The translations under genes and the position numbers were made by a program. Positions 4,482-49,679 of a stretch of DNA of 64,000 nt are shown here, one piece after another. The notes under the pieces were generated by a model. That model was not told the origin of the DNA, did not search any database, and saw only the letters and a list, made by a program, of their open reading frames with translations. This DNA is from Peltaster fructicola. Its lineage: Eukaryota; Ascomycota; Dothideomycetes. Numbering within the stretch: position 1 is the first letter of the stretch; each line of letters opens with the position of its first letter. The DNA lies in assembly GCA_001592805.2 (NCBI GenBank), contig CP051140.1, positions 2,853,501 through 2,917,500 on the forward strand. The letters are read 5' to 3'.

Positions 4482-5472
4482 CTACAAGACAAGGATGGCT
4501 AGAGCAGCGGCGCCCATGAAGGCTGGAGCAGCAGTGATCATGCCTGCCATAGCTGAGGAGCTGCTAGAGGTGGTTGTGGCTGCTCCGCCTGAGCCGCCCG
4601 AGGTAGTTGTGACTGTGGTGGTGACAACGCCTGAGCCAGAGGTGGAGGCTGCAGCTGCAGCAGAGCCGGATGCGGATGCAGAGGCAGAGGCGGAAGCAGA
4701 GGCAGCTGAGTCCGAGGCAGATGCAGAGGCAGAGGCGGATGCTGAAGCTGAAGCTGCTGCGCCATTGAGCTCGGAGGAGGCGTAGGTGGTGGAGAAGCCG
4801 GAAGCAGTCGCAACGACACCTCCGTTAGAGAGGACAGAGTAGTCAGTGCCGCTGAGAGTGTAGTCTGAGCCGCCTGCAGTCAAGGTTGTGCTGCCAATGG
4901 AATATCCAGCTGCACCACTGCTGACTGGGGCGACGATGCCACCAATGCCATTGCCGGAAGCGCCAGATGCTGACATGGTGGTCGAGGCTGCGCTCACTGC
5001 TGAGCCCGAGGTTGAGGCACTATGAAATTGTTAGATTCTGGTCCTCCTGATTGCGATATATCGCTTACGAGGTAGATGCAGAATCGGTTGCGGCGGCGCT
5101 GGAGCCTCCAGTGAAGGATGAGCAGACACTAGCAGACTCGGTTGGGAGAGCGCTGGCACAGTATGATGCGGCGTAGGAAATGGCAGCATCTGCTGCGCCA
5201 GTGTCCGAACCGCAAGCCTTTGAGAACAGTCCCTAACACCATAGCCAAAGTCTGGCTTGCAGCAGAAGCAGGTTGGGTTGTTTGGACAACCGTACTTGCT
5301 GTCTGTCTGCATGATTTCGATCATGTTGTTGATGCAGGTTTGCTGCGATCATTGTCAGCAATGCTGTGTCGTTCGCGCGGCTTTTGTGTATACATACTCC
5401 ACAGGCAGCCAGGGTCGTGTTTTGTGCAGAGACAGCAGCTGCAGTTGCAGCGAGAACGTACACGGCCTTCAT
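4482..5472 (-). CDS. CFEM-domain GPI-anchored cell-surface protein, one frame break
   Basis: Three exons (5472-5398, 5342-5069, 5019-4482) read as a signal peptide (MKAVYVLAATAAAVSAQ), a CFEM domain, an Ala/Ser/Thr-rich stalk and a hydrophobic C-terminal tail typical of GPI attachment. CFEM cysteines run from 'LAACGQTCINNM' through 'PTCFCCKPDFGYGVRDC' to 'ACGSDTG' and 'ASYCAS'. CFEM proteins sit at the wall or membrane; some bind haem, others act in adhesion or infection. Between 'RDCSQ' and 'ACGSD' the frame changes once, at an A-run on the coding strand (5219-5221). The total coding length of 887 is one base short of 296 codons. One missing base (DCSQ-K-ACG) explains it; see findings. Later ATG preferred over an upstream one because it begins the signal peptide. 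Confidence 0.88.
4651..4766. repeat. Low-complexity Ala/Ser-coding tract in the CFEM stalk
   Basis: On the coding (minus) strand this tract encodes alternating Ala-Ser runs such as 'ASASASASASASDSAAS'. Imperfect 6-bp units make it prone to length change by slippage. It forms an extended linker holding the CFEM domain away from the membrane anchor. On the plus strand it reads as an artificial Glu/Asp/Ala-rich frame. Confidence 0.8.
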
Positions 5473-6756
5473 CGTTGTAGATGTGAATTGTTTGATGCTG
5501 AGGTTGAAGTCTGTAGGAAGTCCAGGCTGGTTTCTGTAGGAAAACGAGGAGTGTCTCACAGGATTGTGTTTGCGAAAGGATCAGGAATCGTAATCGTAAT
5601 GTTTGTAATTGTGGCTGGGCTCTTAATTAAAGATCGCGCCTACTATGCACCACGAGCAGCATTAACTAGCTTCACCAGCGCGACGTCAGATCATGATCTG
5701 GCAGTGCCTGTGCGCGACATTTTTCTTCGCTCCTCCCTCGCTACTGAGCGCACATAGCCCATCACCTGATGCCCAAGCATTGTCGCGACCGAGTGCAGCA
5801 CATCTCCGCTTCCTTGCTGCAAGCTCATATACCAAGATTCAAGCCTGCCCTGGTCTTTAGCCTTGGATACTGGAGCACGAGCCATTCCCTGCGCCGCCCT
5901 GACTACGCATCGCACTACTGCAGCGTCCCTCGCAACCTTAGTGGACAGATAGAAACGAAATGATGGAATAGCGCTCCGCTAGGTTTCGAAAACACGGTCG
6001 GCCATTGGGAACACAATCGAATCGCACTGCACCCCATGAGAGATGTACAACCAGTGACGAGGAGGCGAAGCAGGTTTTCGTGAAACGCGCGATGAGGTCT
6101 ATAATGGCGAGACTCGCGGAGAGCGCGAGACGACATGGCTATGCCTTCCTCTTCAAAGTGCTATACTACCATGAACGTCCGCCTTTGCTGCATAGCCAGC
6201 GGTTCCCCATCTCGCCGCTCCACAAAACCGGTTATTAGGTGTTACAAGGACTAGCTACTTCGATGCAAGCAGTTATGCAAACAATTCACGCAGGTCGATC
6301 GGCATTACTGGCAACGAGCTTCGTGTGATCTAGGCGCAGGGGGCTGAAGGGCATGGACGAGACCATTTGCTGCAAGCGAAGCAAGACAAGACTAGCTCGG
6401 CACACATCGAGATGAAGGTGCTCATTGAGCTGTGGTGCAGCATTGTCACAGGCATCCAGAACCAATACGACCCGTGAAGTATTATACTTCAATTCCGATG
6501 CAGCTGTTACCGACACGATTGTTTGTCTACACATCAATGCAGCAGTTGGAATGTCACAGATGACAGTCTGAGGACACATCTGTCTTTCCAGCAGCCCCTC
6601 GAGCTCATGAGTCGACATGGCGGCTGACGTTGGTCCACCGTTCGTCGGTCTGTCTTCGGCGTAGATTTCGAAGCATAAACCTGATCTGCGCGAACGCATC
6701 GTGTCCGCACGTTTCAGCTAAGCTCGGCCTGCATCATCGACGTCATGCTAGAGACT
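5473..6756. other. Intergenic, CFEM promoter and YMR1 3' flank
   Basis: A 1.28-kb stretch. It should hold the CFEM promoter at the left and the YMR1 terminator at the right. A minus-strand frame at 6286-6699 starts with ATG and encodes 137 residues, but has no domain or compositional support, so I do not call it. Other frames are short and overlap. Confidence 0.45.
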
Positions 6757-9372
6757 TCACCTGTCACTAAAGGCGTTCTGCTGGGCGAATGCCGCAAAGT
6801 CCAACCCTCCCCGAAGACTAGGCAGTTGTGCTGGAGCCGTGCTCACGCTCAACGGATCGCCCTCTTCGATCTCCAAGGCTGCCACGTTCGGCACGATCGG
6901 TTGCGATGCGTTGGCATTGACAGACGGCGTTGTATCAGTAGACGAGCTGAGTTGTAAGCCTCCTTGTGCTACACTACTGAGCGCTGGTGTGCTCTTCGCC
7001 GTGCGGATGGTGCTCGTTGGCTCGCTTGCTCCTTCGTGAAGCGACACTGTCGAGACGTTCGACGATATCGTCGACATGCTGGTCACCTTTGGCACGTTCA
7101 TTTCCTCGTCTTTTCGCCCGAACAACGAGTGCCACCATCGTGGCTCCAGCTCACGCTCATATCCCTGCCGGCGAGGGAACAGCAACGGATCTGCGGCATT
7201 TGGTGCATACTCACTGTTCGTAAACTCCCGCCGGCGAGCCAGGAAATTTGCCCAGACAGAGGGAGTGCGATCGAGATACGTCTGCCGCTCCCTCTCGCAA
7301 TTGAACAAGAACTCTCCGTACTGCCCCGAATACGATTGGTAGAGCAGACGACGCAGGAAACGCTCATTGAACTCGAAAGCAGCAGGCTCCTGGTACAGTA
7401 GCTGGTAGACAGCATCCAGGAACTGATGGAAGACAGGCGATACCTCCGACTCGGACATCTTGTGCTCTTTGACGTTCGGCGACGGCATGGTGTGTAGTAT
7501 GGGATTAGGTGGAGGCGTTGACGGTCTCGAATGGTCCTCTGGACCAGTTGGCGGCTGCTTGAAGATGGTGCCACGGCTCTTCTCAAACCAGGTCCTCGCA
7601 CCAGACAGTGCTTTGCTACCAAGAGCCTGTAAATTGTCCGATTTGTCCTTCCGAGGAGGCTGGATACGCTCATTCTCAATCTCAAACCACCTTTCGCTGC
7701 CTGCAGTACCTTGTCGGTCCATGAACTTGTGGCCAAAAGACAGGAAATCCTTCTGTACCAGTGTGATGAATCCCTCGAGAGTCCTGTAGTGCGGATCGAG
7801 CATGACTTGCGCCAGAGCAGAGATCTGGGATGTCCTATCCCATCCATCTGAGCAGTGTATCAAGGCGTGACTACCACCAAGACCCACCACTCTGGCGACT
7901 CGCTCGGCACCATCCAGAATGCTTGCAATGTGGCCCAACCAGTCAGACTTTCGGAGCAGCTCTTGGTTCGGTGCAAGGTCTAGGTAGTCTGAATTACCGA
8001 GCGCATCGACAACCTTGCCCAGCGATGCTCTCATAACGTGGATGTTGTCAATGTTGAGAAAGACTACCTCCACTGGTGCATCAATGCCTTGGGAGTAGTG
8101 CGCGACATCCTCGACACCACCTCCTGTCGCTTTGTTTGCGATCATATTGATCCTCGGCCGTGCATCGACGAAAAGATTGCGTCGCGTGCTGCCGTACACC
8201 CTCTGCCGTGGTGTCTCTGTCTTCGAGTCGTCCAAGATCTGTATCGCTGGCACGTCAGTCTCCACTGCCTGAGCTGCTTGGCTTGGTGAGCCTTCTGGTG
8301 ATTGTGCCTTTGGACTGTGGCTACCGAAGATTGCAGTGACCAGCTTCTCGTCCTGCGGGTTCCTCTTCCCTGCTACACCGACCAGAGGTTGTGATGATCG
8401 TGTGATGCTGCCACCATTAGGGTGCAGGTAGGCCAGTGCTGGTATGCGAGCTTTGGATCGAAACTTCCCAGAGTACTTCAAGACGTTATCGCTAATCTGC
8501 TGCGGAACACAGAGCACGCGAGGGTACGTCGGCGAGTATGTGTGATCGTTGTTGATGTCTGTAATGCGCCAAGCGAGGCCGGGGCCTTCAGAGGCTTTCG
8601 GACTTATGCCCATGCGAGCAAACTCCTTTCGTGCATCGTAGACCTGACCTCCAATGGCAGTCTCCTCTCCTGGTGGCTTGAATGAGAACGCATACATCTC
8701 CTCCATCGACGATACACAGCATCTATCGCGCAGCGCATAGAAGACCTGGCGAGCGGCATCGTCTGGCGACTTGTCAGCCTGAGGACCGTGGAAGTGTAAT
8801 GCGAAGATGGCGAAATCCTTGCAACGGATCCTGATAGCAGGCGGCCGAGCACTGGCCTGTGTTTCTGCCATTACTGGTGACACTGGCCGTCGTGGCGGCG
8901 TGTATGGCACCGATCGAGTTGAGTCAGTAGATGGACGCGCATAGGTGCTCGTCCCATAAGTGGGTGGAAACATCTCATCATCGCCATTCTGCTGCAAGTG
9001 TGCATCTACAGAAGGACGCTGCGAGCTGACCGCAGTACTGGGCCTCAATCGGCAGTGGTGGATTAGAGGAAATGGGACGTAGATCTCCTTCGGTGGCCTT
9101 CTACTGGCTGTCACCGTCTGCCGACTTGACGCTGCGGATCCTGTGGATGTCTGGCTATGGCCATTGGAAGATGCTCCTGCCGTGAGATCTGAGCTGCTTG
9201 GACTTGTGGATGGCTGCGGACTCGACACTGCTCTTGAGCCTGATGTGCTGGGCTGATAGCTGAAGATTAAGTGATGTTGCGTCAGATAGAGCGTGCCGTG
9301 CTCTGGTTGTCCACGGCGATGCAAGCTCACATTGCGAACGCGAACGTCCTGACTGGACTTCTGGCCCTCCAT
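6757..9372 (-). CDS. YMR1: Myotubularin-family phosphoinositide 3-phosphatase
   Basis: A single 871-residue frame. An N-terminal PH-GRAM region (about residues 10-220, 'GTLYLTQHHLIFSY') is interrupted by a long Ser/Thr-rich insert. The catalytic domain follows ('YPRVLCVPQQISDNVL'). The active-site CX5R loop is 'HCSDGWDRTSQ', with Cys507 and Arg513, so the enzyme looks active. 'KDFLSFGHKFMDR' is a further family signature. The C-terminal ~150 residues are Ser/Thr-rich and probably disordered. The family removes the 3-phosphate from PI3P and PI(3,5)P2 and controls endosome-vacuole traffic and autophagy. I chose the ATG at 9372 (MEGQKSS...) because the GRAM domain starts just after it; the frame stays open upstream to 9645 without conserved sequence. 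Confidence 0.93.
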   Translation of the reverse strand: MEGQKSSQDVRVRNVSLHRRGQPEHGTLYLTQHHLIFSYQPSTSGSRAVSSPQPSTSPSSSDLTAGASSNGHSQTSTGSAASSRQTVTASRRPPKEIYVPFPLIHHCRLRPSTAVSSQRPSVDAHLQQNGDDEMFPPTYGTSTYARPSTDSTRSVPYTPPRRPVSPVMAETQASARPPAIRIRCKDFAIFALHFHGPQADKSPDDAARQVFYALRDRCCVSSMEEMYAFSFKPPGEETAIGGQVYDARKEFARMGISPKASEGPGLAWRITDINNDHTYSPTYPRVLCVPQQISDNVLKYSGKFRSKARIPALAYLHPNGGSITRSSQPLVGVAGKRNPQDEKLVTAIFGSHSPKAQSPEGSPSQAAQAVETDVPAIQILDDSKTETPRQRVYGSTRRNLFVDARPRINMIANKATGGGVEDVAHYSQGIDAPVEVVFLNIDNIHVMRASLGKVVDALGNSDYLDLAPNQELLRKSDWLGHIASILDGAERVARVVGLGGSHALIHCSDGWDRTSQISALAQVMLDPHYRTLEGFITLVQKDFLSFGHKFMDRQGTAGSERWFEIENERIQPPRKDKSDNLQALGSKALSGARTWFEKSRGTIFKQPPTGPEDHSRPSTPPPNPILHTMPSPNVKEHKMSESEVSPVFHQFLDAVYQLLYQEPAAFEFNERFLRRLLYQSYSGQYGEFLFNCERERQTYLDRTPSVWANFLARRREFTNSEYAPNAADPLLFPRRQGYERELEPRWWHSLFGRKDEEMNVPKVTSMSTISSNVSTVSLHEGASEPTSTIRTAKSTPALSSVAQGGLQLSSSTDTTPSVNANASQPIVPNVAALEIEEGDPLSVSTAPAQLPSLRGGLDFAAFAQQNAFSDR

Positions 9373-19322: not shown

Positions 19323-22300
19323 ATGAGGCGTTGGCAAGAGGACGGAGAGGTACAAGACTCAGAGGACGAAGAGCTCGGCCTGTCTTCGCACCCTCTAACA
19401 TCGTCGCCTCTCCAAGAGCAACCACAGGACGTGAGCTCCGAGAAACATGCAACCCGAAGACCGGTGTTGAAACCATCGCTTCGAGATGACCAAGGGAATT
19501 CCGTCATTTACCTCGATGGCACACCTTCACCCGATCAGGCGTCACATCGCTATCTGACGAGATCCGAAACGAAGGATGATCGAACAGCCTCTAGGACAAC
19601 TGGTGCTGTGCCCACAACAAATTGGCTGCTCGACCAGCTCAGTCCAAGTACTGCAAGTCAGGAGTCCTCCAGATCGGCCCTGTCCTCGGCAAGACAACAG
19701 GTTGCTATACAAGAACCGTTGAGCACACCTTCCAGATCTTCCACCAAGCCTAATGGCCTGTCGTCGTTGTCCTCGTCCCCACTCAGCGAGCTCACTGCAA
19801 CACCACCCAGTCCACCAAGGGCGGTCACACGAGTCGAAACTGTTCCCAACCTTTCCCTTCAGGACACCAATCATGATCCTGAGTATGAACAGATCCTACG
19901 AGCTCTCGAAGCCGAGAACGAACCAGAACATGTTCATGATCGATCGCTTCGTCAAAGAACTACCAAGCAGCTTCATCCTTTCCTTGTGGACAGAGCAAGA
20001 TACCTGCGGTTATGTAAGGATCGTGGCATGAGACCTGTGCGAGTTCTGGAAACGACACGGCCGGACGATCACACTCAGCTCGACTCGAGTCAAGACTTCG
20101 AATCACAGTTCTCGGCTCATCCACCGCACAGCTCACAGCGTGATCTGGGACTACTTCAGATCGAAGAGCTGCAGGACCAGGGCCTTAATTGCCTCGAAAA
20201 CGACTTCAGAGACGACGACGCAGCACGAAATCGAGCTGTAGTGCAAGGTGTACAGTCAGGCAGGAAGCGAAGGAAATTAGCTCACCCTGCACGAGATGCT
20301 CAGCACCAAGAACCTGCTGCAAGGTCCTACACGATCGATGTCCTCTCCGTACCACCTTCTCCGCCATTAAGTCCTTCGGAACCACTTGACGATGATGCTA
20401 CAAAACTGCCCCGACCAAAGTTCCGACTGCCACTCGGCATGACACCTAAAGCCTTACTGCCTACGCCTCAAGTGTCTTCGGAGCCGAGATCAAGTGGTTC
20501 AGATCAAGTACAGCTGGACTACCCACCCACGAGCAGAACCACTAGACGAAGTGCGATTGTGCTTTCGGATACGAGCTCAGCATCTTCAGATTCTGATGAC
20601 CAGCATGTCATGGCCGAAGTAGGAGCGGATCGTGGTCTCAATGCACAGAAGAAGCGCATTCGAGGTGTCTTGCCAGCGAGCTGGCTGAAGATCGATCTAC
20701 TGGCACAAGCTAAGCGTCAGGAAGTGCAACAACGGCCGGTGCTCGACGACGAGCGTAGTCCGCCATCGTCTCCATCGATTCCGCAGAAGGGAATAGCTCG
20801 CAAGATCAACAATCGTCAACATGTGCCGACACCCGGTAATGCTGTTCTGCTATCTGATGATGAAAGTCTTTCGGATGACGGCTCCAGTGCTACACAATCC
20901 AAACACTATCGACAGCAGCGGTTACACTTTGACGCGAGCGGCGACACTGATATGTTCGCCCACGTCGATGAGATGGAGCACGACTGGGTGGACCCAATGC
21001 TACAAGGATCAAGTTCTTCACGACACAAAAGGTCACATAAAAGACAGCCGTTGATCAGAGACGCCTTACTAAGATCTCGAGATGGGCAGGCCAGACCAAC
21101 GACGTTGGATGCGTCCGAGAGGACGGGAATCTCAAGACAACATAGACGGAGATCCAAAAGGCTACCGTGTCACGCCGAGCTGCACCACGTCTTGGCATCC
21201 TAGACATTCTTAGAAGTCCTGATGAGTCCATCCAGCAACCTCAATTCATGAGACTCGCAGCGCGTGCGGCTCGTAGAGCACCAGACGGCGCACGCCACTC
21301 ACCTACCTCCAAGTATGTGCACCTTGCGACAAGAGACGACACCGCAGAGGTCCAACAAACACTTTCAGCCTGGCGAGAGGGATCAATATTGCCAAGAGGT
21401 GCCACTCCAGCAAGGCAAGCAACTACTGCAGCGACCGTCGCTGTAGGAAGACCCACGCCAGTGCAGCCCAAGCCTCGTCGACCGCTGTTGCCAGATTATC
21501 GACCTCAACCCCGTCCTGCTCAACTGGAGAGTCTCGAAAGTGACTACAGCCGACTATCTCGTGCTGCCGCCTTTCAACGACGCATTAATGTGTTGACGTC
21601 AACATTGTCTAGACAGGAGCTCTCGAGAGCTGCTATACAACGTTGGCAGGTTGAGAGCAGCAAAAGACCACCCCAAGAGCAGCAGCAAGAAGATCTAGGA
21701 GCCGGCTGTAGGCCTGAACCTTCAGATAGTGCTACATTGCAATCGGAACATCTTCAACCACGAACGCGCACAGCACACAATGCCCGTTCACGCAAGCGAG
21801 TATCTAGGCGTGTTGCTGTTGAGCAGGAGCAGTTCGTGCAAGCCCAACCATTAGTTGTAAGGCACCAGTCTCCTAGTCCACAGCCAGCAATGGTCAGCGA
21901 GCAGCGTCCTGTACTCGACATGAGCAATTTCAGCTATTCATACGCGGCAGATCTCGGTGTAGAACCATTTGCTTATGGCACGGCCTTTCCACAATCGACA
22001 TTCGTTGGTAGTGGTGATTTTGCCGCCAGCTTGAGCTTAGCAAATCGACCACTATATGGGACGTCTGGCAGAATCTCAATCCAGATCGGCGACCAGCTTT
22101 ATCACTGGGCGGCATGGACTGAGGAAGTGAGAGCAGGGCTTTTCCAAATTCCTGAGCTGATTGCAACTGCTATCGCAACCATCAGCTTGTTCAGCACAGA
22201 GGACAGGTCGGAAGGAATCGCAAATGTGGCAGCCAATGTCACATATCTGCTACAATCGATCGTCAGGTACTGCACTCGCTGCTTGTACTTCCACGATGCG

Positions 22301-25300
22301 ATCGACCGGCAAGCCTGTGTGGAGTCTCTTTGTCGTTTCTGCGATGACATCCACATATTGGCAACAAGTGATGGACTGATCGGACTTGATGACCAAGGTA
22401 TGAAGATCATGATGCTCCAGTATGCTCTGGCGCTTGCTGCATATACCACTAGGTTGGCGACCAACGAGACGATCCGTCCTGTGATTCGCACGAGGTGTGA
22501 AGGCTCTATCAGGGTCATCGCCACAAGTCTTGCGAACGGGATTGTCAAAGACGGAAGCCTCTCGCCGACTTATCTTACAACTCATCCAGAGGGCTCGCAA
22601 GTGTTGCAGAATGGCTCTCTCGCCAGTTCGATCATCGTCCTGCATCACTCGCTACAGCTGCGAACCTCTGGCGTGTCTTTCTGGCAGGTAATCAACAGCG
22701 TACTCAACGACGCGGTCGAGATCACGACACATGCCAGAACGATCGAAACAATATGGCAAACGACATTCCTCCTGCTCCCATTTCTGGACTTCAGCGATGA
22801 TGGCACAATACCGGTCAGATCTAAATACCAAGGCTTATCCGACGACTGGGCCTTGCTGAAGCTCGCTGCCGAGCGAGTATTCAAGCTATATGACAACACA
22901 GTAGCCATTCCTGGTACAAAGATCAACAGCTACATTCGCACAATGTTCCATCGATCAATGAGCCTGATCACACACTGGCGCTGGTGGAAGTGTGAGGCTT
23001 GGCTTGCTACAATCTATGACTTCTTCATCTCTCGCAAGCTCGCACCCCTCAAGGGCGAGGTGTCAATGGGATCGCCTGCATTCCTTGACGCTCTGACGAC
23101 GGTGCCTGATCTACACATACAATCCAGTGATTCATCATATACCATGTTCCTTAAGCTTGTGGCAGTCGGGATTGGATCCATGCACAAAGAGTCTGTATAC
23201 ACTGACAAGAAGACAGTATCGCACTATTGGCGACTCATTCCCGGTGCTCCAAAGACCTACCGTAAGGATGCGGACATTGCTCAAATCGAGTTGGACTCTC
23301 TACGCAACCATTACGATCTGCTAAGCACGCTATATTATGCATCGCCGTCGAGCAATCGCTTGCCTGTAAGCGTGCTGACCGGTCTCGTCGACCATAAGAC
23401 CTCTCATCGCGCAGCTTGCCGCATCAGCGTCAAGACGTGGACACGACTTATGAGCTTTCAAGCGTCTCTCGATGAACCAGTATTGAGGCTCGACGACTTC
23501 TGCGGTTGGTTCCACGAGATCAAGAGCAGCACAGTCACACAATATCGACTGGCGAGGACGGAAGCAGAAGAGGACTTCCTTCGCGCAAGGTCGAACACAT
23601 CATCTGTCGTCACAATTGCACATCTTGAAACCGTTGTTGCTAGCAACCAGAATCGGATCGCTGCTACATTGGTTGACATCCTGGCAGGCGTCGAGCGATC
23701 GATCACGAGTGCAAGAGACCTGAGCAGAGTCCTACATCTGGCCACGAACCTCGAATACTGGAAGATCTTCGTGGACTCTGATGTCACAGAACGGCCGCTG
23801 AAACCCGTGATCATGGAAGGCCTTAAAACAGTGCATGCCTGCCTTCGTCGTGTCGAAAGCGCATATTCACTGGTCTTCCAGCAGACAGACGAAGACAGCC
23901 AAGACTATGGCGATGCGTCCTTGCTGGATCAATACATGCCAGACGCCGGAGCGCCTTCGAATGAGACTGCCGATCTGGTCTCTCTTCATGTCACACCAAT
24001 GGCTCACTTGATATCCAATGCATTCGGCGCTGAGCCACCACCTGAGGACTCAATTTTAAGCAAGGCGATTGATGTATGGTCGTTGCTGCTGAAGAATATG
24101 GTCAAGCTTCGCATCACCACATGGGATGATGTCCTTGAGGGATACAGTCCCGTTTCTTGGCGACAGCTTCGAGACACCGCTCAGTATCGCATTTATACTC
24201 CGAAGCTAATCTCCACGATCATATCCAACGCAGACGATGCAAAAGCACTGCCATTCGGGCCCATCTTGACGGCCTGGCTGACATCGACTGTCGAACGAGA
24301 ATCAGTTCTCAAATTCCAGCATGATCTGACCACCGCGATGCTCAACAACTTCACCCGCGATGCCGTCCTCTACAATCTGCCGTTTTCTCAGACGGGAGCA
24401 GGTATATTCCGCATATCCATGCACGAGTTGAGGCAATGTCGCTTGGCGTTGCTCGCAGCGGTCTTCTCCAACATGCGCGACCACTTAGACATCGCCTACA
24501 CCGTTCGAGGTCAGGATCAGGAACGACGACGACTATATGCCGATACCATACGTGAGATGATGGTTGCAATGCGTAGGAACTACGTCGAGACCCAGCCCTC
24601 AAACACATCTGTCGCGGACGCCGGTACACAAGACTCGTATGTGGAGTTTGTACAAGCTGTCGTGTCCCTGATGCAACAACATACCAGCCGCATATGTCCT
24701 GTCGATCGCTTCTTCACAGACTCAATCGCATTCCCACTGCCAGCAGATGATCCGACATATCTGGTAGGGCGACTCAAAAGCTATTCACCGGAACTCGGAC
24801 AGACGAAGACACAGAAAGAGCTGACAGTGTTCCTGCGGACGGTGTGTGAACGAGCTCTGGTTGACGATCAGCAACCATATCTCGTCAGTCAACTTGTGAT
24901 GGCCGTGGGTGGCGATATCGAGCAGGGTTGTGCAAGTACGCCAAGCCTCAGATCTTTTCTACTCAATGCTATCCTCCCAGCATATATCAACCTCTTACTT
25001 GCACATAGCGCCGCGTGGAGGCTCGCGAGCCCAATGCTTGACGTTGCGAAGAGCCTCGTTGAGGGAGCAATGTACGCCATGGACATCAACAACCCAACAA
25101 GCATGCGGGCTATGGAAGACATGATCTGCAGTATCGTTCGCGCGACCACTTCTGCTGGCACGGACATCATCATGCGCGATACGGCATCAAAGGAGGGAGT
25201 CGACCAGGCATTGCTGCGTCTGATCATGCTCTCCACGGAAAGCATGCCTGTGGTGGAGTATTTGATCCGACTGGGACACGCAGCACACGCAGCCAAGCGT

Positions 25301-25723
25301 TTGTCGTCGTTCAACAAACTTTGTGAATGGTATGAGCAGAAGCATCAAGGCCTTGAGAGCGACAGCGAGGTGGAGAGGATCTCCCGAACAGACAATGCAA
25401 TTGCTGACACTGCCCTCCAAGCCACAGCTCATATGCAGACCGTGGAGAAGACATGGGCAGAGGCGCGTCGCTACATGCAGGACCAGGTCTCGAAGTCACT
25501 CACCGCGGATTGGAAAAAGGAGGGCAGCAAGTTTATGATCCGGCGCGGTACGACGTGGAAGACGGTCTCAGCTCTGCCTGTGGACGCTGGCGCTCCGTCT
25601 GTCCTTGATGTCGTTCGTCAGTATACCAGGACATACAGAGCTCTCTTCACTCGTCGTCCATACCGACAGCATCGAGAGCGAAAGGACCCATCGCTAAGCA
25701 TGAGCTCAGTGCTGGTGATATAG
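19323..25723 (+). CDS. Mms22/Mus7-family DNA-repair scaffold, one frame break
   Basis: Two frames read as one protein of about 2,130 residues. The start 'MRRWQEDGEVQDSEDEE' and a disordered Ser/Pro-rich N-terminal third, followed by 'AAPRLGILDIL' and a long helical region, match the fungal Mus7/MMS22 family. In yeasts Mms22 works with the Rtt101-Mms1 cullin ligase to restart damaged replication forks. The first frame runs to 21203, the second is open from 21146. At the A-run 21156-21159 one missing base would give RRRSKK-ATVSRRAAPRLG without a gap, and 6,401 bases plus one is 2,134 codons. No intron with acceptable splice sites fits. The C-terminus 'VLDVVRQYTRTYRALF' is intact. Confidence 0.85.
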
Positions 25724-27596: not shown

Positions 27597-29319
27597 ATGG
27601 CCCAACAGGGCCGCAACGGCCACCATCAAGACAATGGCGCAGGTGAGTGCTGCAGAAAAGACGATCGGAAAAGGGTCGATCAATGTCAAGTTCACCTTGA
27701 GAGCTAACCCATTGATGTGCAGACACGACATCCTACATTTTCAATCCCATGTCGTACAACTACTCCCAGCATCATGCCACAAGTCCGCTCACCGTGCTCA
27801 GTCAACAAGATGCTACCGTCATGGCAGACTTCTTCAATAACCCGGACACCACGTCGAACGATAACGCCTACATGCCTTACGGCGTCGAAGGGAAGCCTGA
27901 CTTCACGAACAACATCACCTCCGATTCCACAATGACCAATCATCAAGTGCAACAGTCACATGCCAATTTCACTTCACACTCCATGCCTCAGGCCAGCCGT
28001 ATACCGGTGAATATATTTGATTACAGCCCTTCCTTCTTGCAAAACAACCACAATCAGCAAGCATCGAACAATCAATCTGCTGGTGACGCTGTCGCAGGCG
28101 CCTCTGCCCTTCTGGGACTCTCCTCTTCGCAAGAACAAGCTAATCTATTGGGTGCCAACAGCTATATGACCTGGCCGAACATCGTTGGTGCTCACCTACA
28201 AGCTCCAATGAATAATCACAACGTCAACAACAGCTCGCAGAGCAACGGCTCTCCGATGCGTAATCCACCTGTCAAGTCTCACAGCACTTCGCAGATCCAG
28301 ACTCAGATCCAACCACCGCCGACTCCAGCTACTTCCTGGGCAGACATACAGGCTCAGGAGATTGCTATGCGCACCCGTCATCCCTCTCTGCAGCTTGACA
28401 CGACCAGCACACATTTCCCATCTCATCAGCAGTCTTGGCAGAACGCTCCAATGTCCGCTGCACCACACGCTGGCCGTCGTCCCCCTATGATGAAGTTCGG
28501 TAGTGACAATCACTTCAGTCCGCACGGCTTCACTGGTCCGACCAATCAGCAGCAGGAGGAGAAGGAGAATACCCTGTTGCATATGGCCACTGCTGGTGAT
28601 CTGGCAACAAATGCTTCCGATGCTGCTCAAGCTCAGCGTACCATGACTAGTCTTGGCCATCGCCATAGCATCACTGCCGGAATGCCGATCATACCAACTG
28701 CTCACCAGTCTCCAGTCATGGTTAGTGGCATGGGTAATTCACAGCTGCAGAACACATTCCATACTGGCCACAGCACTGCTGGCAATAATCAGAGCCGCAA
28801 GCGCACCTTCAGTCAGGTCGAAAACAGCAGTACAGCACAAGTCGGCCACGACACCACCGGCCAGGCCTTACCACAAACCATCAACGGTCAGCGTGGTGCC
28901 AGTACTTCTGGCCATTCCAACGGTACAAGCAATGTCACCTCTCAAGCTCGTCAGCCTACTCCCCAACAATCCGCGGCATCTACAGGCCCTCCTGCTTCTC
29001 GCCGCCGCACTAATGGGCGGGAGCCTCGTGCACCACGACAGAACCTTACCGATGCACAAAGCGCCAGAATCACATCGCTTCCGAGCAGAAGCGTCGTGAC
29101 ACCATGAAGACCAACTACGAGATCCTAGGTCAGCGCGTCCCTGCTGTCCGTGATGGTGGAGCCATGAGCCGCAGCGAAATCCTACATCATGTTGCAAACC
29201 ACATGGAGGCTCTTATTGCCGGCAATCAAGTCATGTGTGGTCTCGCCGGAATCACACTGGCGCAGCTCGACGAGTTACCAGACTCTGAAGACGAACAGAG
29301 CGATGGTGGAGAAGACTGA
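27597..29319 (+). CDS. Basic helix-loop-helix transcription factor, one frame break
   Basis: Two exons (27597-27642 and 27723-29319); the 80-nt intron has GTGAGT, GCTAAC and GCAG. The product is about 547 residues. Residues 1-440 are Gln/Asn/Ser-rich and look like an activation region. At the C-terminus lies a bHLH domain: basic region 'NHIASEQKRRDTM' with the His-Glu-Arg pattern of E-box binders, then 'TNYEILGQRVP', a loop, and 'SRSEILHHVANHMEALIAG'. It ends in an acidic tail. The frame changes once at the A-run 29058-29060: adding one A gives TDAQ-KRQ-NHIASE, and the total of 1,643 plus one base is 548 codons. Without it the DNA-binding domain would be lost. The basic region resembles Ino4-like fungal factors, but I cannot name an orthologue. 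Confidence 0.87.
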
Positions 29320-34059: not shown

Positions 34060-35984
34060 ATGGACGCCGCTTCGATTATACAGATGAACAAGGTCCGCGC
34101 ATCTGTCGGACTTCCTTTGCTTCCAGTCCCAGGACAGGCTTCAAACGAGTCGCAGTCCAACGATGCAGCAGACGCAGAAAGTGATGATGAACTCAGCACA
34201 CTTGATAAACGACAAGCGGCCGCAGACAAGAACTGGCAAAAGCTCGAGGAAGAGCGTCTGGACATGATCGCCCGTCAGAAGCGAAAAGATGCTGCGAAGA
34301 AAGCTCGAGATACGGCTGCTCGTTTCGCGAAGCTCGAAGGCAAAGGTCTTGGAGATGCTGACGATGACGCTGGCGACCTCGATACAAGAAGCTGGTTGCT
34401 GCAGCAGAAGAAACGTCAGAAAAAGATCGACCAGGCGCGCAGACTAGAGGCCGAGCTGGAACAGCGCGAACGTGAAATGCAGGCCGAGTATACCTCCAAG
34501 GACCTTGCTGGCGTGAGAGTTGGTCACGAAATTGACGAGTTTGACGAGATTACTGGAGAGAAGATTCTTACACTCAAGGATACACAGATCGGCGAGGAAA
34601 GTGAAGACGACGAGCTTGAGAACCAGGAACTTCGAGATCAAGAGAAGATTCGTGAACGGTTACAGCTCAAGAAGAGACTCCCAGACTACGACCCTACGGA
34701 GGAAGGAGAAGAGAATACAGTGCTTTCAAAATATGACGAGGAGATCAACGGCCCAAAGCAGAAGCGATTCAAGCTTGATGGACAAGGCACTTCAGCGGAG
34801 GCCAAGCAGCAACGTGTCGAGCGCGAACAAGCTGCAAAGCCTGGCAAAGGTGTTAAGATCAGTTTGGACATGCTTGAGGATGATACACCTGTGAACGACT
34901 ATCTCGATCCATCCAGCATCAAGGTGAAGAAGCCCAAAAGAAGAAGGAGAAAACTCGGCAGAGGGCAGCAGATGACGATGAGATCTTCCCTGTGTCCAGT
35001 ATGGCTGCCACGAATGATGATGCAATGGACCGCGATGCACCGTCTAAGAAGCGTGCGCTCGACTTCGATGATGATGATCTTCAATCAAGACTTGCTCAGC
35101 AACGCCGAGAGACATTGAAAAAGCGGAAGAAAGTGGATGCAGCTGAGCTCGCAAGACAGATGCGAGAGGAGATGGCTGTTGATGAAGACCAACTTGAAGA
35201 CGGAGGTCTTCTTATCGATGAGACTTCTGAGTTCGTCGCGAAGCTGAAGAGACCGGATACGCCAGATCAAGAAGAGGATGTACACGAAAGACAAAGACTA
35301 CTAAAGGTCGAGCACGATGATGATAGCGACGCCGAAATGGCTGAAGAGCCATACGCTCCCATCGACGACAAGCCTGATGCAAATCTGACAGCCGCAACAG
35401 CAAACGGACTGGAAGATGAGGAGACCATGGCCGGTCAAGGTCTTGGTGCAACTCTAGCTCTACTGCGCAAACGAGGCATTGTTCAAGATGGCGATGCTAA
35501 GAGCATGGCCATGAAAGAACGTCAGCGACAGCGCTTCTTGAGCGAACGACAGAAACTCATCGAAGAGTATGATGAGCACGCGAAGAAGCAACGAGAAGCA
35601 GATCGCAGATCCGGTCGCCTCGATAAGATGACACATCGCGAGCGTGACAACTATCAGAAGCAGCAAAACGACCTGCGCGAGCAGTTCTTGGCACGAGCGC
35701 AGGCTGATATGTTCAATGCCGAATACAAGCCGGATGTAAAGCTCGAATATCACGATGAGTTTGGACGAAACTTGAACCAGAAGGAAGCGTTCAAGCACTT
35801 ATCTCACGCTTTCCACGGCAAGACCAGCGGCAAACAGAAGACCGAGAAGCGTCTCAAGAAGATTGCTGACGAGCGGAAGAACGAGGGCAAAGGTATGCTC
35901 AACGTCAGTGAGAGCAGCGGTATGTCTTACATCCAGGGTCGTGAAGGCAAGAGGACAAAGCAGGCTGGTGTGCGACTCCAGTGA
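34060..35984 (+). CDS. SNU66: Snu66/SART1-family tri-snRNP splicing factor, one frame break
   Basis: The product is about 641 residues. It starts '[20 protein letters not shown]' like other Snu66/SART1 proteins, and is rich in charged coiled-coil. '[20 protein letters not shown]' and the C-terminal '[20 protein letters not shown]' through '[12 protein letters not shown]' are family hallmarks. The protein bridges U5 and U4/U6 in the tri-snRNP and is needed for spliceosome activation. The frame changes once at the A-run 34936-34939: adding one A gives '[19 protein letters not shown]', and 1,925 plus one base is 642 codons. The gene is otherwise intact and likely essential, so a missing base in the assembly is likely. 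Confidence 0.9.
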
Positions 35985-40034: not shown

Positions 40035-40064
40035 AGCAAAGAAGCTATAACAATTTCCAATGGA

Positions 40065-41955: not shown

Positions 41956-42104
41956 TCCTCTATGAGCACTCTCCACACCAGCTCTTCGATCCAACGTACC
42001 TTAGCTCACATCAACTGTACAATGAATACCCTACCGTACTCGACGTGCTCCCAGTGAAGCGCCCCTGGCATCGTGATGTTCTTGTTCATATAGTTCTACA
42101 ACAC

Positions 42105-44890
42105 TTACTCCCAATCCTCCTTCCATTCCAGCGTGATATGGCGCAGCTCTCGGGTCAGTCTCCGTCTACTCTCCTCATCATCGACACCACCGCCACGAGC
42201 AAGACTTTCCACACGCTCAAGTCGCTGTATCAGGCCCGTCTGCTTATCTTGCAGTCTTAATTCTGCTTCTCTCCTCTCCTTAGCCTTGCGCGCAAGATAC
42301 TTGAGGTCGTTGTCCTTGATCGATCTCGCGAACACTCGTCGCATTCGCGCCGAGTAGAGCTGGCAAGACGTACCAATGCTCTCGCCATAAGCAGGTTGTA
42401 TGGTCTGGTTGAAGCGTTTGGCAATGTCGACGCCCTTTCTCACCTCTGGCTCAATCACCTCCTCGTAGCACTCTTCACACACTGTGAATGCTGGTACTGC
42501 GGGTATGTAATGCCACAGGCCGCCAAGGATGAGGGAATCGCGCTCACACTCTCGAAGACTAAGCTTGCGCTCCACCAAGAGCACGAATGGCATGGGGTTT
42601 GGCAGTGTCCGCAATGTGTGTGCTTGATCGTGCATTTCGATGATGGTGTTGAGGTATTGAGTGAACCTGTTTGTTGCTGCACGGAGAGAGCACCGCTTTT
42701 TCTCCCAAGACGATCGGCCTGGCAGCTTCTGAAAGAAGCCACTAAACGTAGGGAGCAGTCTCTCAAGCTTGCGTACATCGGTGTAACAGACTTGGAAGTC
42801 CCTGACAAACAGTCCTTCATTATCCTTCAAACCATACCATACGCGTACAGCTTCTTGACCCTTCGGACAAGGATCGGAGTTCGCATCGATATCTGCCAAG
42901 TCTCTAAACAGCTGCAGATCTGCGAGTCGTTGTTGCACTGTCAACAAATATGCTAGCCTGATCCAGGGAGAGCCGAATGCGCAGGCAATCTTGGTGTTGA
43001 GGTCGCAAGGAAGTGCTCGCCTGAAGTACTTCCTATAGACTGTGCGCTCAAAGATTGCTTCTATACACTTAGGACAGAAGTTGAGAGCTGGTGCACCGAC
43101 CATTGTGTACCAATCATCACGATTGGCGATGGGATCTGGTCGAGAGCAGTCTGGCAGACCTCGCTTGAGCATAGCTTCGGCTTCTTGCTTGGTAGGTCCT
43201 ATGACGTTAGCGTGAGACGCTCGAGAGACGAGCTCTGGACGGGATCCCGGTGCTCTTGGCTCGGTCGGGGAAGTACTTGTGAAAGAGTGACGCGCTGGTG
43301 GTGGTGGTCTGTTTGGCCCTCCAGCCACCACAGCCGATGCTGGAGCATAAGTGTCTGAATGATATTCTGGTACAATCGGTTGCCCAGGCCTTGCAGGAGG
43401 TAGCCACTGGTGATCTTGTTCGATTGGCATGTATACCTCAGGAGTCATTGGACCTTCGTTGACGGGATAGGGAAGTGCAGCTGGTCGAGATGAAACCGAT
43501 GCCAACCGTGGAACGCCAGGCGATGAATCTGCTCTCATGGAAGTGGACAAGCGAGATGGCGGTCTGGCATTATTGGGAGCTGCGCCTCTCCTTGTTGCGT
43601 TGGCGGCCAACAACTGATTCCAATCCAGGTCAGACGATGGCATCTGAGGCATACGAGGCATTGCTACGCTAGCAAATGGTGGCGGAGAATTGGTGCGAGA
43701 ACCTGCTTTCGAGCTCACGGCAGAGGCTCGTCTAGATTCCGGCGAGCTGTTCTGCTCCTGCGGCATCTCCTGGCTGTAACGAGGAGATCGAGCTGGTGGT
43801 GAAGATGACCGATGCGAATGCACTGAAGCTGCGGGTGATGTAGTGCGAGAACCAAGGCTTGACTCGCGATGGAAGGCTGGCGGATTCAGAGAAGCACTTT
43901 TGGAGCGAGATCGTGAGCGACCTTGGTTGCAGCAGCAAGTGCACTCGCCACAACCAACGGCGAAGGTCGGTATGAATTGTCGAGGTTTCGTGGTGCTTGC
44001 GTAGATGCTGCTGTATCTGTAGCACGTCTGGTGTCTCGAGAGGATGCTTCCTGAATGATGGATCGTCTTGTACCACTACCTTTCAGTGTCGACCGTCGGG
44101 TGTCATCGTCGCCATCGTCGATGACCATATCGTTCTTCCCACGATCCAGGTAGTCCTTTGCAGGTCGAGAAGGCGATGCACGCGGGCTGCGATCCTTGTG
44201 TGTGTCATGCAGAGTAGAGACACTAGGAGACAAGAGCGCCTCATTTGGAGCTGTATGTTGCCGCAAGGCTGTAGGCCTGGACATTGCATAAGGCGAAGCG
44301 GTCCTTTTGGGTAGTCCGTCCCGAGCATCGCTGAACTCGGTGTTGATCCTTGATGGTCTTCTGCGAGCCTTTCTGAGCCGCTCATCTTCGCTTGTGGGAG
44401 GTGTCAATACGCCTCGCTGACTCTTTCTGCCAGACTCTGAGTCTGACACCATGACGAAGCGACGCTCATGGAGGTTGGCATACTCCGCAACCTCTTCAAT
44501 CACAGGATCCTGATCGATGGTGCCTCGCGATGGTATCTCGTTCCGTGCCGAGTCTCGCAGGGCCCTGCTTCCACCCAGCTCTCTTGCCAGCGATCTTGCT
44601 TCACTCTCTACTGTTGGCTGCGGTGGCCATGTGTGGCGTGGCCGTCGTGGTAGGCCAGCTTGGCGACTTCGCTGTTCATCGGAGGAAAGTCCAGAATGTG
44701 GTGATCGCTGCCTGCTATTGTGATACCGTCCATCTGCTCTTCGTGCGTCGTGTCGACCAGAATCCGAGCCATAGGATTTCTCGTTGCGTACCGTCGTAGG
44801 ATTCAGATATTCGCGAGGCTTTGTGAATGAGTCGTGTCGTCGTGGAGGGCGGTAGTCGTGTAATTCGTAACGTGGGTCGTAGGAAGACAT
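42105..44890 (-). CDS. Unknown protein with paired CxxC motifs, one frame break
   Basis: Two minus-strand frames read as one protein of about 928 residues. The first 330 residues are Arg/Ser/Asp-rich ('MSSYDPRYELHDYRPPRRHD'); then comes an RS-like stretch 'GRSRSRSKSAS' and more disorder. The ordered C-terminal third has 'FCPKCIEAIF' and 'TVCEECYEEV', two CxxC pairs that could form one zinc site, then a basic coiled coil near the end. The first frame stops at 43886; the second is open well before that point. Lengths fit a single missing base (2,786 plus one is 929 codons), placed somewhere in about 43886-43990. I do not recognise a named family. Two separate genes are possible but would leave the second without an ATG near its start. 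Confidence 0.65.
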
Positions 44891-46085
44891 GATGGCGAAC
44901 TCAATACAAACTCGAAAGATGGTCGAGAAGTTGGGCCATCCTCGAGCTGACGCAAGGGATCAATGGTCCGGTGAGGTGAGGAGGATCGTGCAGTAGGAAC
45001 TAGAATCGATATATGTCAGCTTGAGAGGCCACTCTCTGCTGAGCGCCACGTCGTGCGAAGAAGAGCTGTGGGAGTCCGAAAATGACTGTGGTCGAATGTT
45101 GTGTTCTGTTAGGCGTCCATAGCGAGCAAGGAGTAGCTGAACCAGCCTGGATCAGAGTTCGAGCATTTACTGCGGCGGCACAGGCGTAGCGATCCTTCAA
45201 CATGTTGATTGGCAATGGTAAGCGCAAGTTATTTTGCTGCAGGGACACAAACGAAAGAGACGCCCTCACCGCTGTCCGTTACAACCAAGTACATAATCGA
45301 GACTATGACATCTCGACGTCTCGATCGCTCTACATGGGAGGCCTCACGAATCCTCATTATCTCCCACCCATGCAGTGGGCTTGCACCGGTGTTCACATTG
45401 AGACCGGTCAACGGGTAACAGCATCGATCGATGAGGCGACGAAGAAATAATGGTTTGCTTGCTATGTGCCATGTCACATCCCCAACCTGTGCTCCCTCGG
45501 GCACACAGGAGTGGATAATCACTGTCTTGGGAACGAGTGCTGCGTCATGCTCCGTCTTCCACTGTGGATGGACTCGAAAGTGGATGGGATGTTGTGCTTT
45601 AGCGTTGGCCACTGGTGTCTGACCGAATGGAACAACACGAGGAAGTCTGCCGAACCTTTCGTCATGCATTGAAAACCACCAGAAGCCGAAAGTCTGGCAC
45701 TGATGTATGCCAAGACCGACACGCAATTGATACGAGGCATGTCCGTGCTACCGAACAGTATTGCAATCTCATCGGAGTATCAGCGATGAAGGTTTCCGTG
45801 CCATGCAACCACAACGCAACCACGAGTCCTCATAGCGAGAGGTATAGCCGATTACAGTGGTAAGCTGTGCATAAGCTCGAGAGCTTTGAAGGAGATGCCT
45901 TCAGGCTGCCAAATAGTGATGAGACCGGCATGTTTCTTACACGCAGGCATCATTCCTTCACATGTATGTCCACGTCTATCACTGTGGTTCTTCAGCCAAG
46001 CAGAAAGCTTCTACCTGGTCAGCATGCTGCAGCCAAGAAGGCAAGAGAAAGCCACGGATCAAGGCGGTCGTGGGTCGAGCTGCAT
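44891..46085. other. Intergenic, no supported gene
   Basis: About 1.2 kb. It contains the promoter of the CxxC-protein gene. A minus-strand frame from an ATG at 45669 to 45229 encodes 146 residues without recognisable domain; it may be chance or a gene remnant. No RNA or repeat signal was seen. Confidence 0.4.
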
Positions 46086-46953
46086 TCACCATGGATATTG
46101 CTGTTCAGAAAGGTCAGCAGAGGCCGCCTAAATGTACAAGAGCCTCATACCTCATTCTGCCAGGTCCAGAAAGTACCGTTATCCTCTGTAGTCCTATCCA
46201 TGATGGTCTTGAGGCACTGCTGCACACTCTCGGAGACTGTCATCTGTCCTTGGACTTCCCAATCAACCATGATGTCAGCCATGTCAGTCCGGACCTCGCC
46301 TGGATGGAGGGCTATCACTGCCGTCGAGCTGCTTCTCTTCTTCAATTCTGCCGCCATATGCCGTAATGCCTGGTTCAATGCTGCTTTGGACGCGGCATAT
46401 GCAGCAAAACCATCTTCGAAATCATTGAACCTCGATGCTGAGCCAGAGTCGCTCGAAATGAAAACTATTAGCCCGATCTTGATGCCGGTGGCTAGTAGCT
46501 TCTGTGCAGTGATAATGGGGCCAATCGTGTTTGTCTGAAGATGTAGCATGAAATCCGAGTATGATCTTGTAATGTGAGGAGTGAAAGGATGTATACCAAT
46601 AACTTACGCCTCTGTCGCTCTGTTAGGATAACGCAGTACGCCTGCATTAATGATGAGGTAGTCGAGCTTCTCTAACCTCATCGTCGAGAGTTCCGTGGCC
46701 AGGTTCTTCGCCCTGATCAGTCACAGACTCTGCCTTCGAGATGATCTCTCACCTCAATGCTGGCCTCTGAGAGCATATCGCAGAGATGTAGGGAGCATTG
46801 CCAGGATGGAGTTCTCGGCCATAGTTGTTCGACAGAGGCTTCACTTCTCACAGTTGCGTAGACTAGGTCGTTGCCAGCCTCGAGTATCTGCCGAACAAAC
46901 TCATGCCCTATGCCCCGAGAAGCACCAATAACAGCCCACCTCTTTTGACTCAT
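46086..46953 (-). CDS. Short-chain dehydrogenase/reductase with tiny last exon
   Basis: Four exons (46953-46753, 46705-46608, 46565-46151, 46100-46086) give 242 residues. The NAD(P)-binding motif 'VIGASRGIG' is at residues 8-16, 'LIINAG' follows, and the catalytic pair is Tyr156/Lys160 in 'YAASK'. The last coding exon has only 15 bases and supplies the conserved ending '...EQYPW', matching the GTFWTW...YPW tail of carbonyl-reductase-like members. Without the last intron the frame ends a few residues early. Introns are 42-50 nt; two use AAG acceptors. Substrate unknown; the family reduces carbonyls or oxidises alcohols in the cytosol. Gene is divergent from cytochrome c. Confidence 0.85.
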
Positions 46954-47473
46954 GGCTGGTATCGTGCCTGCTGGTGAAGTAAGTTGTCGCGTGCTAGACA
47001 AGATCGTAGATTACGAGCATCGTGGCGCAACAACGACGTCAGCAACCGGGTGTGACAGCCTGGCGACATGTACGCCACAACAAATGTCCCAGTTCTCAGT
47101 CAGAGCCTCGGATCAGCATCTCGGACAACCCAGAATTAGGCTCGTGAATGCGCAATAGCAGATTGAGTTCGTTGATTTGCCATCCACGGCTATAGTGGCA
47201 GCGGGTGCACCGTGTTATTGCCAGCGTTATGTTGGCAGGGAGGATTCGGAGGAAATCAAGCTGTAAACGAAAATGTTGTGATTGGCTACGTTTGCGGCGA
47301 TTCAACCTGGCTCCCTGCCTGTGCTCGGAGGTGATCACTTTTTTGTTTCTATCCCATCACTTTCATCTGACACTGTATTCCAACCACTTATCAGTCCCAT
47401 ACGACAATCACATCCTGATCGCCTCGAGCATCTTCAATAAGTCGAACCACACTACGAACCACACATCTTCACA
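46954..47473. promoter_or_regulatory. Divergent promoter of the dehydrogenase and cytochrome c genes
   Basis: A 520-base region between opposite starts. The right part is a pyrimidine- and CA-rich leader before the cytochrome c ATG. A CCAAT-type element could be expected for cytochrome c but I do not call one. Confidence 0.45.
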
Positions 47474-47996
47474 ATGGGCAAGGAAAGCTTCTCGGAAGGT
47501 ATGCTTCGCCCCAAGAGACGGCGTGGATCTGCGTATCGAGCATCGGGATGTCAAGCATCACCTGTTGGATCACCGCGGATTCATCGCTTTGTCGTCGCTG
47601 CGTCTGCAGGATTGTATCTGACTGGTATCGATAGGTGACGTCAAGAAGGGTGCCAACCTCTTCAAGACTCGATGTGCGCAGTGCCACAACCTCAAGGAGG
47701 GCGAGGGCAACAAGATCGGTCCAAACCTTCACGGTCTCTTCGGCCGTCACACTGGTCAGGTTGAGGGCTTCTCATACTCCGAGGCCAACAAGCAGAAGGG
47801 CATTGAGTGGAACAACGATACCCTAGTAAGGATGAAAAGCACGAGACGAAAAGGCAATCGCTGACATCTATATCAGTTCGAGTACCTCGAGAACCCAAAG
47901 AAGTACATCCCAGGAACCAAGATGGCATTCGGAGGTCTGAAGAAGGGCAAGGACAGGAACGACCTGATCTCTTTCCTTGCAGCAGAGACAAAGTAG
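47474..47996 (+). CDS. CYC1: Cytochrome c
   Basis: Three exons (47474-47498, 47635-47825, 47877-47996) encode 111 residues. It carries electrons from complex III to complex IV in the mitochondrial intermembrane space. The haem-attachment motif is Cys22-A-Q-Cys25-His26 ('[20 protein letters not shown]'), and the sixth ligand is Met88 in '[11 protein letters not shown]'. The N-terminus '[19 protein letters not shown]' is typical of filamentous fungi. Intron 1 (136 nt) and intron 2 (51 nt) have GTATGC...TAG and GTAAGG...CAG ends. The first exon is only 25 bases, and intron positions keep the frame. It is convergent with the seryl-tRNA synthetase gene. Confidence 0.97.
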
Positions 47997-48198
47997 AGGA
48001 GCACATGAGCAGCGAACCTGTAAAACTATCACCTGAGATGCATTCGAGATACGATAGACGGCGTGTAGACATATGCGACCTTTAGAACCGGGCCCAATCC
48101 ACACCTTGGAAGTCATCAGGGAGTTGTTCCACCTGGTGGGCTACGAGCCATGCAGATGAGACCATTTGGTGTGCTATAAAATGAATCTTCGCTCTACT

Positions 48199-49679
48199 TC
48201 ATTTCTCTCTGGCTATGAATTCAAGCTCGCCTGGCATCCACTTTCGCAAGCATTCGGGCACTCTGACAGCCTTCTTTGGCTCTTCCCAGCCATTCTCGAT
48301 GATTGCAGCAGCACTCTGGGCACAGCCAGCGCAGTGCCATTGATGGTCCATGGGAAGCTTAGTCCGGATCTGCCCTCTACCTTCAATCTTGTGCCAAGGC
48401 GTCTTGCCTGGTAGTCTGTGCACATGCTGGCGCTGCTTACTTCGCCGTAGCCATCGTCAATGCTTGTTCTCGAAGGAAAGAAGGCCTCAATATCGATCTT
48501 GCGAATGGATGAGGCACCGAGGTCAGTCGTAGGCATCTCCAAAATGCGAGCATGTAGCCCAAGAGTCGTCAGGATTTCTGCTTGGATGGACAGGAGTTCG
48601 TTGAACACCTCATCTGACTGACTCTGCTCGGTCTCACCACTGTCAAACCGTGGTGCCTCCTCAGAAGAGTCGTATGATGGCAATGTCCATGCAAACATTT
48701 CAACTTTGGTGAATTCGTGGACTCGATACAGTCCTTTGGTGTCGACACCTCTGGCTCCAGCCTCTGCTCGATAGCAGCGTGACGCACCGATTACCTTGCG
48801 AGGTAGATCTGATGCTGTGAACGTCTTGTTGGCTTGTGAGCCTGCAAACGCGATCTCTGCTGTTCCTGAGAGGACTAATCCTGGCTTGTCGGCGTCTGCT
48901 TGTATCGCATAAACTTGCGTCTCGCCATGCTGATCCCTAGGCATGAAGCCACAAGCAGCGGCGATGTGAGAGTAGACCAAGCTTGGCGGTGTCTGCACAG
49001 TCCAGCCATGTTTGAGGGCAACTGAGATAGCATACTGCACCAAAGCTTGCTCCAACAATGCTCCCTCGTTCTTGAGGTTGTAGAATCCCCAGCCACTTGT
49101 GGTTGCACTGCCTTCAAAGTCGAGTATATCAAGCTCTTTACCGATGTCCACATGGCTCGGCCCTGCTGTGCGCGACTTCTCTTCATTGATGAAACCTTTC
49201 ACATCAGCTGTCTCACCTACTGGCGACTCGAGTGAGCTGAGGTTGGGTAATTCCAATGCTAGTGCTTCCATCTCGTCATGTGTAGCCTTCTCTTCCTTCT
49301 CGAATGCTGTCAGCTCTTCCTTGAGTTGTTTCGCCTCTTGCAGAAGCGCGTCGCGACTGGTGATGGCATCCTTCTGCTTCAGCTGCTTGCCCAATGCATT
49401 GTTTCGTTGACGAAGCGTAAGAGCTTCTCTTTGACGATCAACTAGAGCATTGTGAAGCTCGAGGATTCGCCAGCCATTACGGGACTGCTTTGGATAGTTC
49501 CGCTGCTCGCAATTCGTCTCGTAAAGTCCAGGATTCTGTCGAATATGTTTCAGATCGAGGACGGGCTTGGGCGCAAAGGCCGGTCGTGTGTATTGCTTCG
49601 TCGTGCAGCCGCCGACAGTAAGTGGCACTCTCAGCGATCGAGCATGGCGAAGACAACAAGGACCAGCTCGCGCTGGCAT
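48199..49679 (-). CDS. DIA4: Mitochondrial seryl-tRNA synthetase, one frame break
   Basis: About 493 residues. A basic presequence (about 1-40) precedes 'VLDLKHIRQNPGLYETNCEQ' and a long antiparallel coiled coil that grips tRNA(Ser). The class II core follows, with motif 2 around 'ASRCYRAEAGARGVDTKGLY' and 'RVHEFTKVEMFAW', and motif 3 'SFPWTINGTALAVPRVL'. The frame changes inside motif 3: one more base at about 48309 gives 'VL-AAIIENGWEEPKKAVRVP' and the family-type end, and 1,481 plus one base is 494 codons. Without it the last part of motif 3 is lost. The plus-strand reading 'gattgcagcagc' would be expected to have a doubled C. Start at 49679 is the first ATG. Likely a dedicated mitochondrial enzyme. 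Confidence 0.9.

Follow-up and report, generated by a model that had tools for sequence, protein, structure and literature searches.

Results

Six genes in the window each change reading frame once

We analysed a stretch of 64,000 nt of Peltaster fructicola DNA (hereafter, the window), which corresponds to positions C2:2853501-2917500 of an 18,987,130-base, five-contig genome. Six genes in the window each shift frame once: a CFEM-domain gene (4485..5472, minus strand), a Mus7/MMS22 gene (19323..25720, plus strand), a bHLH gene (27749..29316, plus strand), an SNU66/SART-1 gene (34084..35981, plus strand), a gene for a CxxC-type protein (42108..44890, minus strand) and the gene for mitochondrial seryl-tRNA synthetase (SerRS; 48202..49679, minus strand). 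The initial annotation had noted these six frame changes, and comparison with relatives, Pfam profiles and a gene model agree in confirming them at or near the places given there. Other genes in the window, namely those for a myotubularin-like protein, a SAM/Ras-binding protein kinase, TauD, tryptophan synthase, the OBG GTPase and GatF, match their families in one frame. No hits were obtained when the window was scanned against Rfam and for tRNA genes.

The SerRS frame change, which lies in a CTG repeat, is placed at base 48309 by alignment: in nine of ten relatives, the match in frame -3 ends or that in frame -2 begins at this base. Six of them (P0004, P0007, P0011, P0014, P0063 and P0067) both end and restart there with consecutive residues, and the gene is therefore one base short. 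P0003, P0005 and P0017 do one or the other, and P0002 overlaps both sides. The break cuts a conserved C-terminal segment, and the PDB match to a mitochondrial SerRS stops at residue 459. All ten relatives are single proteins of 492-579 aa, known as predictions rather than from their DNA. The database protein from the window's contig that matches SerRS is the printed 488-residue frame, and the protein database held no separate near-identical SerRS attributable to the older Illumina draft of the species. The genome contains no intact second mitochondrial SerRS, the sole other SerRS-like match being 32% identical and located on C3.

Profile searches gave a similar picture for two further genes. 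In SNU66, the SART-1 profile (PF03343) is split over two frames, with profile positions 1-235 and 229-585 meeting in an A-rich stretch at 34938-34962; the HMM gene model described below called the change at 34939. SNU66 is single copy, with SART-1 matching nowhere else in the genome. The search for second copies covered SNU66 and mitochondrial SerRS. In the bHLH gene, the HLH match (PF00010) begins at 29059, adjoining a short A run, in the frame of an ORF at 29014-29316, while the upstream ORF (27716-29104) is in another frame. The HMM call for this gene fell at 29081.

For Mus7, all five relatives cover the frame-3 ORF and then continue in frame 2 from 21158-21173, at a short A run (P0140 being counted with its upstream piece). 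The first-frame matches of the relatives end between 21062 and 21167, apart from that of P0142, which ends at 21473. The PF09462 profile falls in the second frame, and the HMM call was at 21146. The public model of this gene (AMS68_003289; 2,080 residues) bridges the break by splicing out 158 nt at 20988-21145 on the plus strand as an intron, such that residues 1-555 of the corresponding protein, P0139, map to 19323-20987 and residues 556-2080 to 21146-25720. The donor of this intron, GTGGAC, departs from the type found in 41 of 53 predicted introns of this genome, and on reading the sequence of 20988-21145 we found no consensus branch site. Moreover, three of the five relatives (P0141, P0142 and P0145) align right through the 158 nt. 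We conclude that the intron is implausible.

The CxxC-type protein matched no Pfam family. Seven aligned relatives, of 922-1003 aa, pass from frame -1 into frame -3 within 43934-43880, close to a stretch that is G/T-rich and contains CTG repeats. Since the length of the linker also varies among the relatives, we count this shift as one base short modulo 3. The HMM gene model made no call here at a penalty of -8; at -6, it joined the two halves by two extra-base calls, which amount to the same net shift modulo 3. The database protein from this contig, P0121, has 518 residues, spans only 42108-43661 and keeps to the frame as printed. The weakest of the six cases is CFEM, whose gene start and introns were assigned by reading and whose pieces were searched apart. 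Positions 10-46 of the 66 in the CFEM profile (PF05730) match in one frame, and the match, which at 19.5 bits is below the Pfam cut-off of 22, stops at base 5220, adjoining a short A run on the sense strand. The HMM placed a one-base-short change at 5235.

All six frame changes are in the direction of a missing base

The HMM gene model gave missing and extra bases equal priors, with a penalty of -6, -8 or -10 for each frame change. At -8, it called five short and no extra bases in the window, covering five of the six genes; at -10, four short and none extra; and at -6, five short and two extra, both of the latter being those that join the halves of CxxC. The model placed the SerRS break 100 bases early. 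In synthetic genes (100 per class, penalty -8), 98 missing and 98 extra bases were recovered, and there were no calls in intact genes. The first versions of the model were rejected, as they failed to tell a frame break apart from a split gene or a low-cost spurious intron; the version used here was improved by imposing a minimum intergenic length and by including splice and branch motifs from 53 predicted introns (window and L003-L021). Among these introns, 43 are 43-60 nt long, 41 have a GTRNGY donor and 44 have a CTRAY branch site. Three predicted introns lacking a branch site sit at or near the Mus7, SNU66 and SerRS break sites.

As the initial annotation had stated, the direction is always a loss: each of the six genes is one base short, with CxxC counted as described above. 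Six changes of one sign out of six have a one-sided probability of 0.016 if both signs are equally likely.

Sequence context of the break sites

Loss of bases from A/T runs had been proposed for at least four of the six sites. Four sites do have short A runs, but the printed runs there are merely 3-4 bases long, and the other two sites are not A/T runs, SerRS lying in a CTG repeat and CxxC near its G/T-rich and CTG stretch. Runs of at least 3 bases are common, and the probability of this coincidence ranges from 0.0007 to 0.05 depending on the site width chosen. Between 5,001 and 48,500, the ratio of A/T runs of at least 4 to those of 3 is no lower than elsewhere (Fisher p 0.34), which indicates that there is no bulk shortening of A/T runs in this patch. 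Across 264 kb (the window and L002-L021), no A/T run exceeds 7 bases, and the counts resemble those of second- or third-order Markov simulations. We noticed after the fact that the sense-strand motif C-A(3-4)-G is present at four of the six window sites and at a kinase gene break described below. This motif does not by itself cause a shift, since 470 copies of it are present within 212,790 bases of predicted coding sequence. The proposed explanation is supported in part: assembly error is the best reading of the six changes, but the "systematic" and "homopolymer" elements of the proposal go too far, and systematic homopolymer undercalling is not supported.

Frame breaks outside the window are rarer and of mixed sign

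At a penalty of -8, the gene model made 12 short and 10 extra raw calls in 260 kb outside the window (L002-L027), and no frame-change calls in a further 30 kb (L028-L030). We sorted the 22 calls into eight that are intron-like, one with no break, four that were kept as real or probable (L004:5948, L025:4277, L026:7519 and L027:961) and nine that were neither kept nor dismissed (L006:6538, L007:4865, L008:4851, L010:16, L013:7062, L022:5655, L026:29, L026:120 and L027:5272). Four of the intron-like calls looked like introns on reading (L006:4471, L007:4284, L012:7085 and L023:6388) and the other four coincide with introns that had already been predicted (L007:3725, L007:7187, L008:5234 and L019:5681). 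Reading L008:2806 revealed no break.

Of the four kept breaks, a single one lacks one base, two are of opposite sense and the fourth is complex. A Het-C gene on the minus strand of C3 (L025 near 4275) is one base short at a short G run, with profile positions 20-181 and 168-559 matching in two frames. In a TPR/DnaJ gene on C4 (L026 near 7517), a change of opposite sense, equal to one added base or two missing ones, falls at a TG repeat. The change in a bZIP gene on C5 (L027 near 961) is of the same kind and falls at a GCT repeat; we regard it as probable only. In the isocitrate dehydrogenase gene at C1:365012-366242 (L004 near 5948), the conserved C-terminal part shifts frame between profile positions 273 and 268, with a surplus of about 8 bases relative to the profile. 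Thus, the sign of the breaks is mixed outside the window, unlike inside it.

We also scanned the whole genome for kinase domains, scoring 127 of 135 candidates and obtaining 141 matches over 76,839 aligned bases, with one overlap and some short introns counted in. The count of breaks refers to those between neighbouring matches, as opposed to domain edges and solitary partial matches. There were 37 pairs of neighbouring matches, two of which are too close for an intron. The kinase gene at C2:1049563-1050227 (L031 near 190-200) has two long ORFs in different frames and is one base short, at a short A run. The candidate at C4:1838888 was intact on reading and was rejected. At the window rate of 6 breaks per 39,973 predicted coding bases, 11.5 breaks would be expected in the 76.8 kb scanned for kinases, in which there is one (chance of one or fewer, 0.0001). 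Other families were scored genome-wide for only some of their candidates and were excluded from the rate (MFS_1, 9/240; Sugar_tr, 9/168; AMP-binding, 14/47; DEAD, 37/67), and WD40 matches (150/354 scored) are too short to reveal breaks.

The excess in the window is smaller when set against the directly sampled sequence, where five of nine curated events are in the window (p 0.016, a value that leaves aside the nine unsettled candidates and the selection of the window for its breaks). For the flanks of the window on C2 (30 kb; 20,584 coding bases), the expected number of breaks is 3.1 and none was confirmed (p 0.046); one candidate there, L022:5655, is among the unsettled. Were all nine unsettled candidates real, little of the window's excess over the samples would be left; the kinase scan does not depend on these candidates. 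We conclude that other chromosomes also have breaks, at a lower frequency. We regard the 43-kb stretch as a possible hot spot only, since the window was chosen for its breaks.

Discussion

The assembly from which the window was taken is almost certainly the published nanopore assembly of P. fructicola LNHT1506. Contig C1 has 4,890,228 bases and begins with CCCTA repeats, and C5 has 2,770,634 bases; the text of the genome paper describes five chromosomes, 2.77 to 4.89 Mb long and adding up to 18.99 Mb, with TAGGG telomeres (PMC7181583). In addition, a protein encoded on the window's contig carries the name AMS68_003289 [Peltaster fructicola]. According to the same text, nanopore reads were assembled with Canu and Illumina data were incorporated with SPAdes, followed by rounds of Pilon, Nanopolish and Pilon, the first Pilon round using ~256x Illumina reads (PMC7181583). 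In nanopore data, deletions are described as the commonest error, and the lengths of homopolymers and short repeats tend to be underestimated, with runs below 5 mostly well read (PMC8486125). Frame-shifting indels that survive polishing are described in the Homopolish paper (PMC8011154).

We propose, with a probability of about 0.87, that the six frame changes are local consensus errors of the nanopore-based assembly that survived polishing. In favour of this reading are the common sign of the six changes, the intact relatives (those of SerRS, Mus7 and CxxC match both sides of the break), the lack of a second copy of SNU66 and mitochondrial SerRS, the one-frame matches of other window genes, the sequencing platform, the much lower rate in the kinase scan and the public Mus7 model, which works round its break. 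Single bases would have been lost from the nanopore consensus in short runs and repeats, and polishing would have corrected most of the genome while leaving some of the losses in this stretch. The three rounds of polishing would account for the clean appearance of most of the sample. The underlying genes are then most likely intact, and we would expect accurate reads to disagree with the printed sequence. As a guess, polishing might have failed locally where Illumina mapping was thin or ambiguous, for example in a region that the earlier Illumina draft lacks. The legend of Figure 1 in the genome paper states that linker regions of the new version are marked relative to the Illumina draft, which is 0.85 Mb smaller (PMC7181583). 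If the linker regions are taken as absent from the draft, the stretch studied here may be one of them. Two considerations count against consensus error: three rounds of polishing should fix most such errors in single-copy DNA, and the printed runs are of 3-4 bases only, with two sites that are not A/T runs and no A/T shortening in the patch.

A second explanation is that the frameshifts are real, the genes being decaying pseudogenes or the sequenced culture having carried true deletions. Genuine slippage also removes bases in short runs, and the genome paper reports deep Illumina polishing and a compact genome with reduced gene families (PMC7181583). However, this would require that six near neighbours of unrelated function each lost a single base, and two of them, mitochondrial SerRS and SNU66, are without an intact second copy. 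An aerobic mould would not be expected to survive without charging serine in its mitochondria. In addition, no further frame change was called in the six genes at a penalty of -8, and the extra calls at -6 serve only to join CxxC. Coding signal persists past every break called by the gene model; hence, the called genes have neither the several disabling changes nor the lost coding signal of pseudogene decay, with CxxC being judged from its relatives. We therefore consider real frameshifts unlikely.

It is also conceivable that the breaks are genomic and are read through, by -1 ribosomal frameshifting or by transcript slippage at short A runs. Programmed -1 ribosomal frameshifting joins two overlapping frames, with one base re-read. 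Five of the eight one-base-short breaks (the six in the window, Het-C and the kinase gene) are at a sense-strand C-A(3-4)-G, a coincidence with a chance of ~6e-7 for a 12-base range per site, calculated for a motif picked after seeing the sites. However, very few frame changes were called in the 212.8 kb of predicted coding sequence that contains the same motif 470 times, and two of the sites have no A run. Moreover, no zero-frame slippery heptamer (X XXY YYZ) is present in any of the six site ranges, taken as 12 bases either side (43915-43950 for CxxC), and the SerRS relatives are predicted as single proteins. Read-through is thus very improbable. The related idea that the printed bases are correct and the fungus restores frame in its RNA or on its ribosomes, at a set of short A runs and repeats, is more improbable still, and we know of no such recoding habit in filamentous fungi.

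Unrecognised introns are just as improbable an explanation as read-through: frame changes elsewhere do look like short introns (L007:4284, L012:7085 and L023:6388) and the public Mus7 model uses one, but a search for phase-compatible introns with a consensus donor, branch site and acceptor found none across the six site ranges (weaker signals being outside the scope of this search), and relatives of SerRS, Mus7 and CxxC align up to or across the sites with no stretch removed.

If the six changes are consensus errors, as we favour, the consequences extend beyond this locus. The assembly is the published reference for a genome described in its paper as the smallest among Dothideomycetes, and it is used for claims of gene loss (PMC7181583). 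Breaks of this type turn intact genes into truncated or oddly spliced models and distort claims on gene content. Counts of gene loss and fragmentation from this assembly need to be rechecked against reads.

The frame changes can be compared with three known systems. Programmed -1 frameshifting would likewise join overlapping frames; it differs in that no slippery heptamer is found here and that the SerRS relatives are single predicted proteins. The residual indels described for Homopolish (PMC8011154) are, like the changes reported here, frame-shifting single-base indels that persist in conserved genes after polishing, many of them in short runs; in the present case, however, the runs are of only 3-4 bases, two of the sites lie outside A/T runs, and the errors are few and unevenly spread, with no systematic pattern. 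The closeness to nanopore length underestimation lies in the dominance of deletions and the underestimation of short repeats. Since runs below 5 are mostly well read in that description (PMC8486125), the breaks in the window would be rare survivors.
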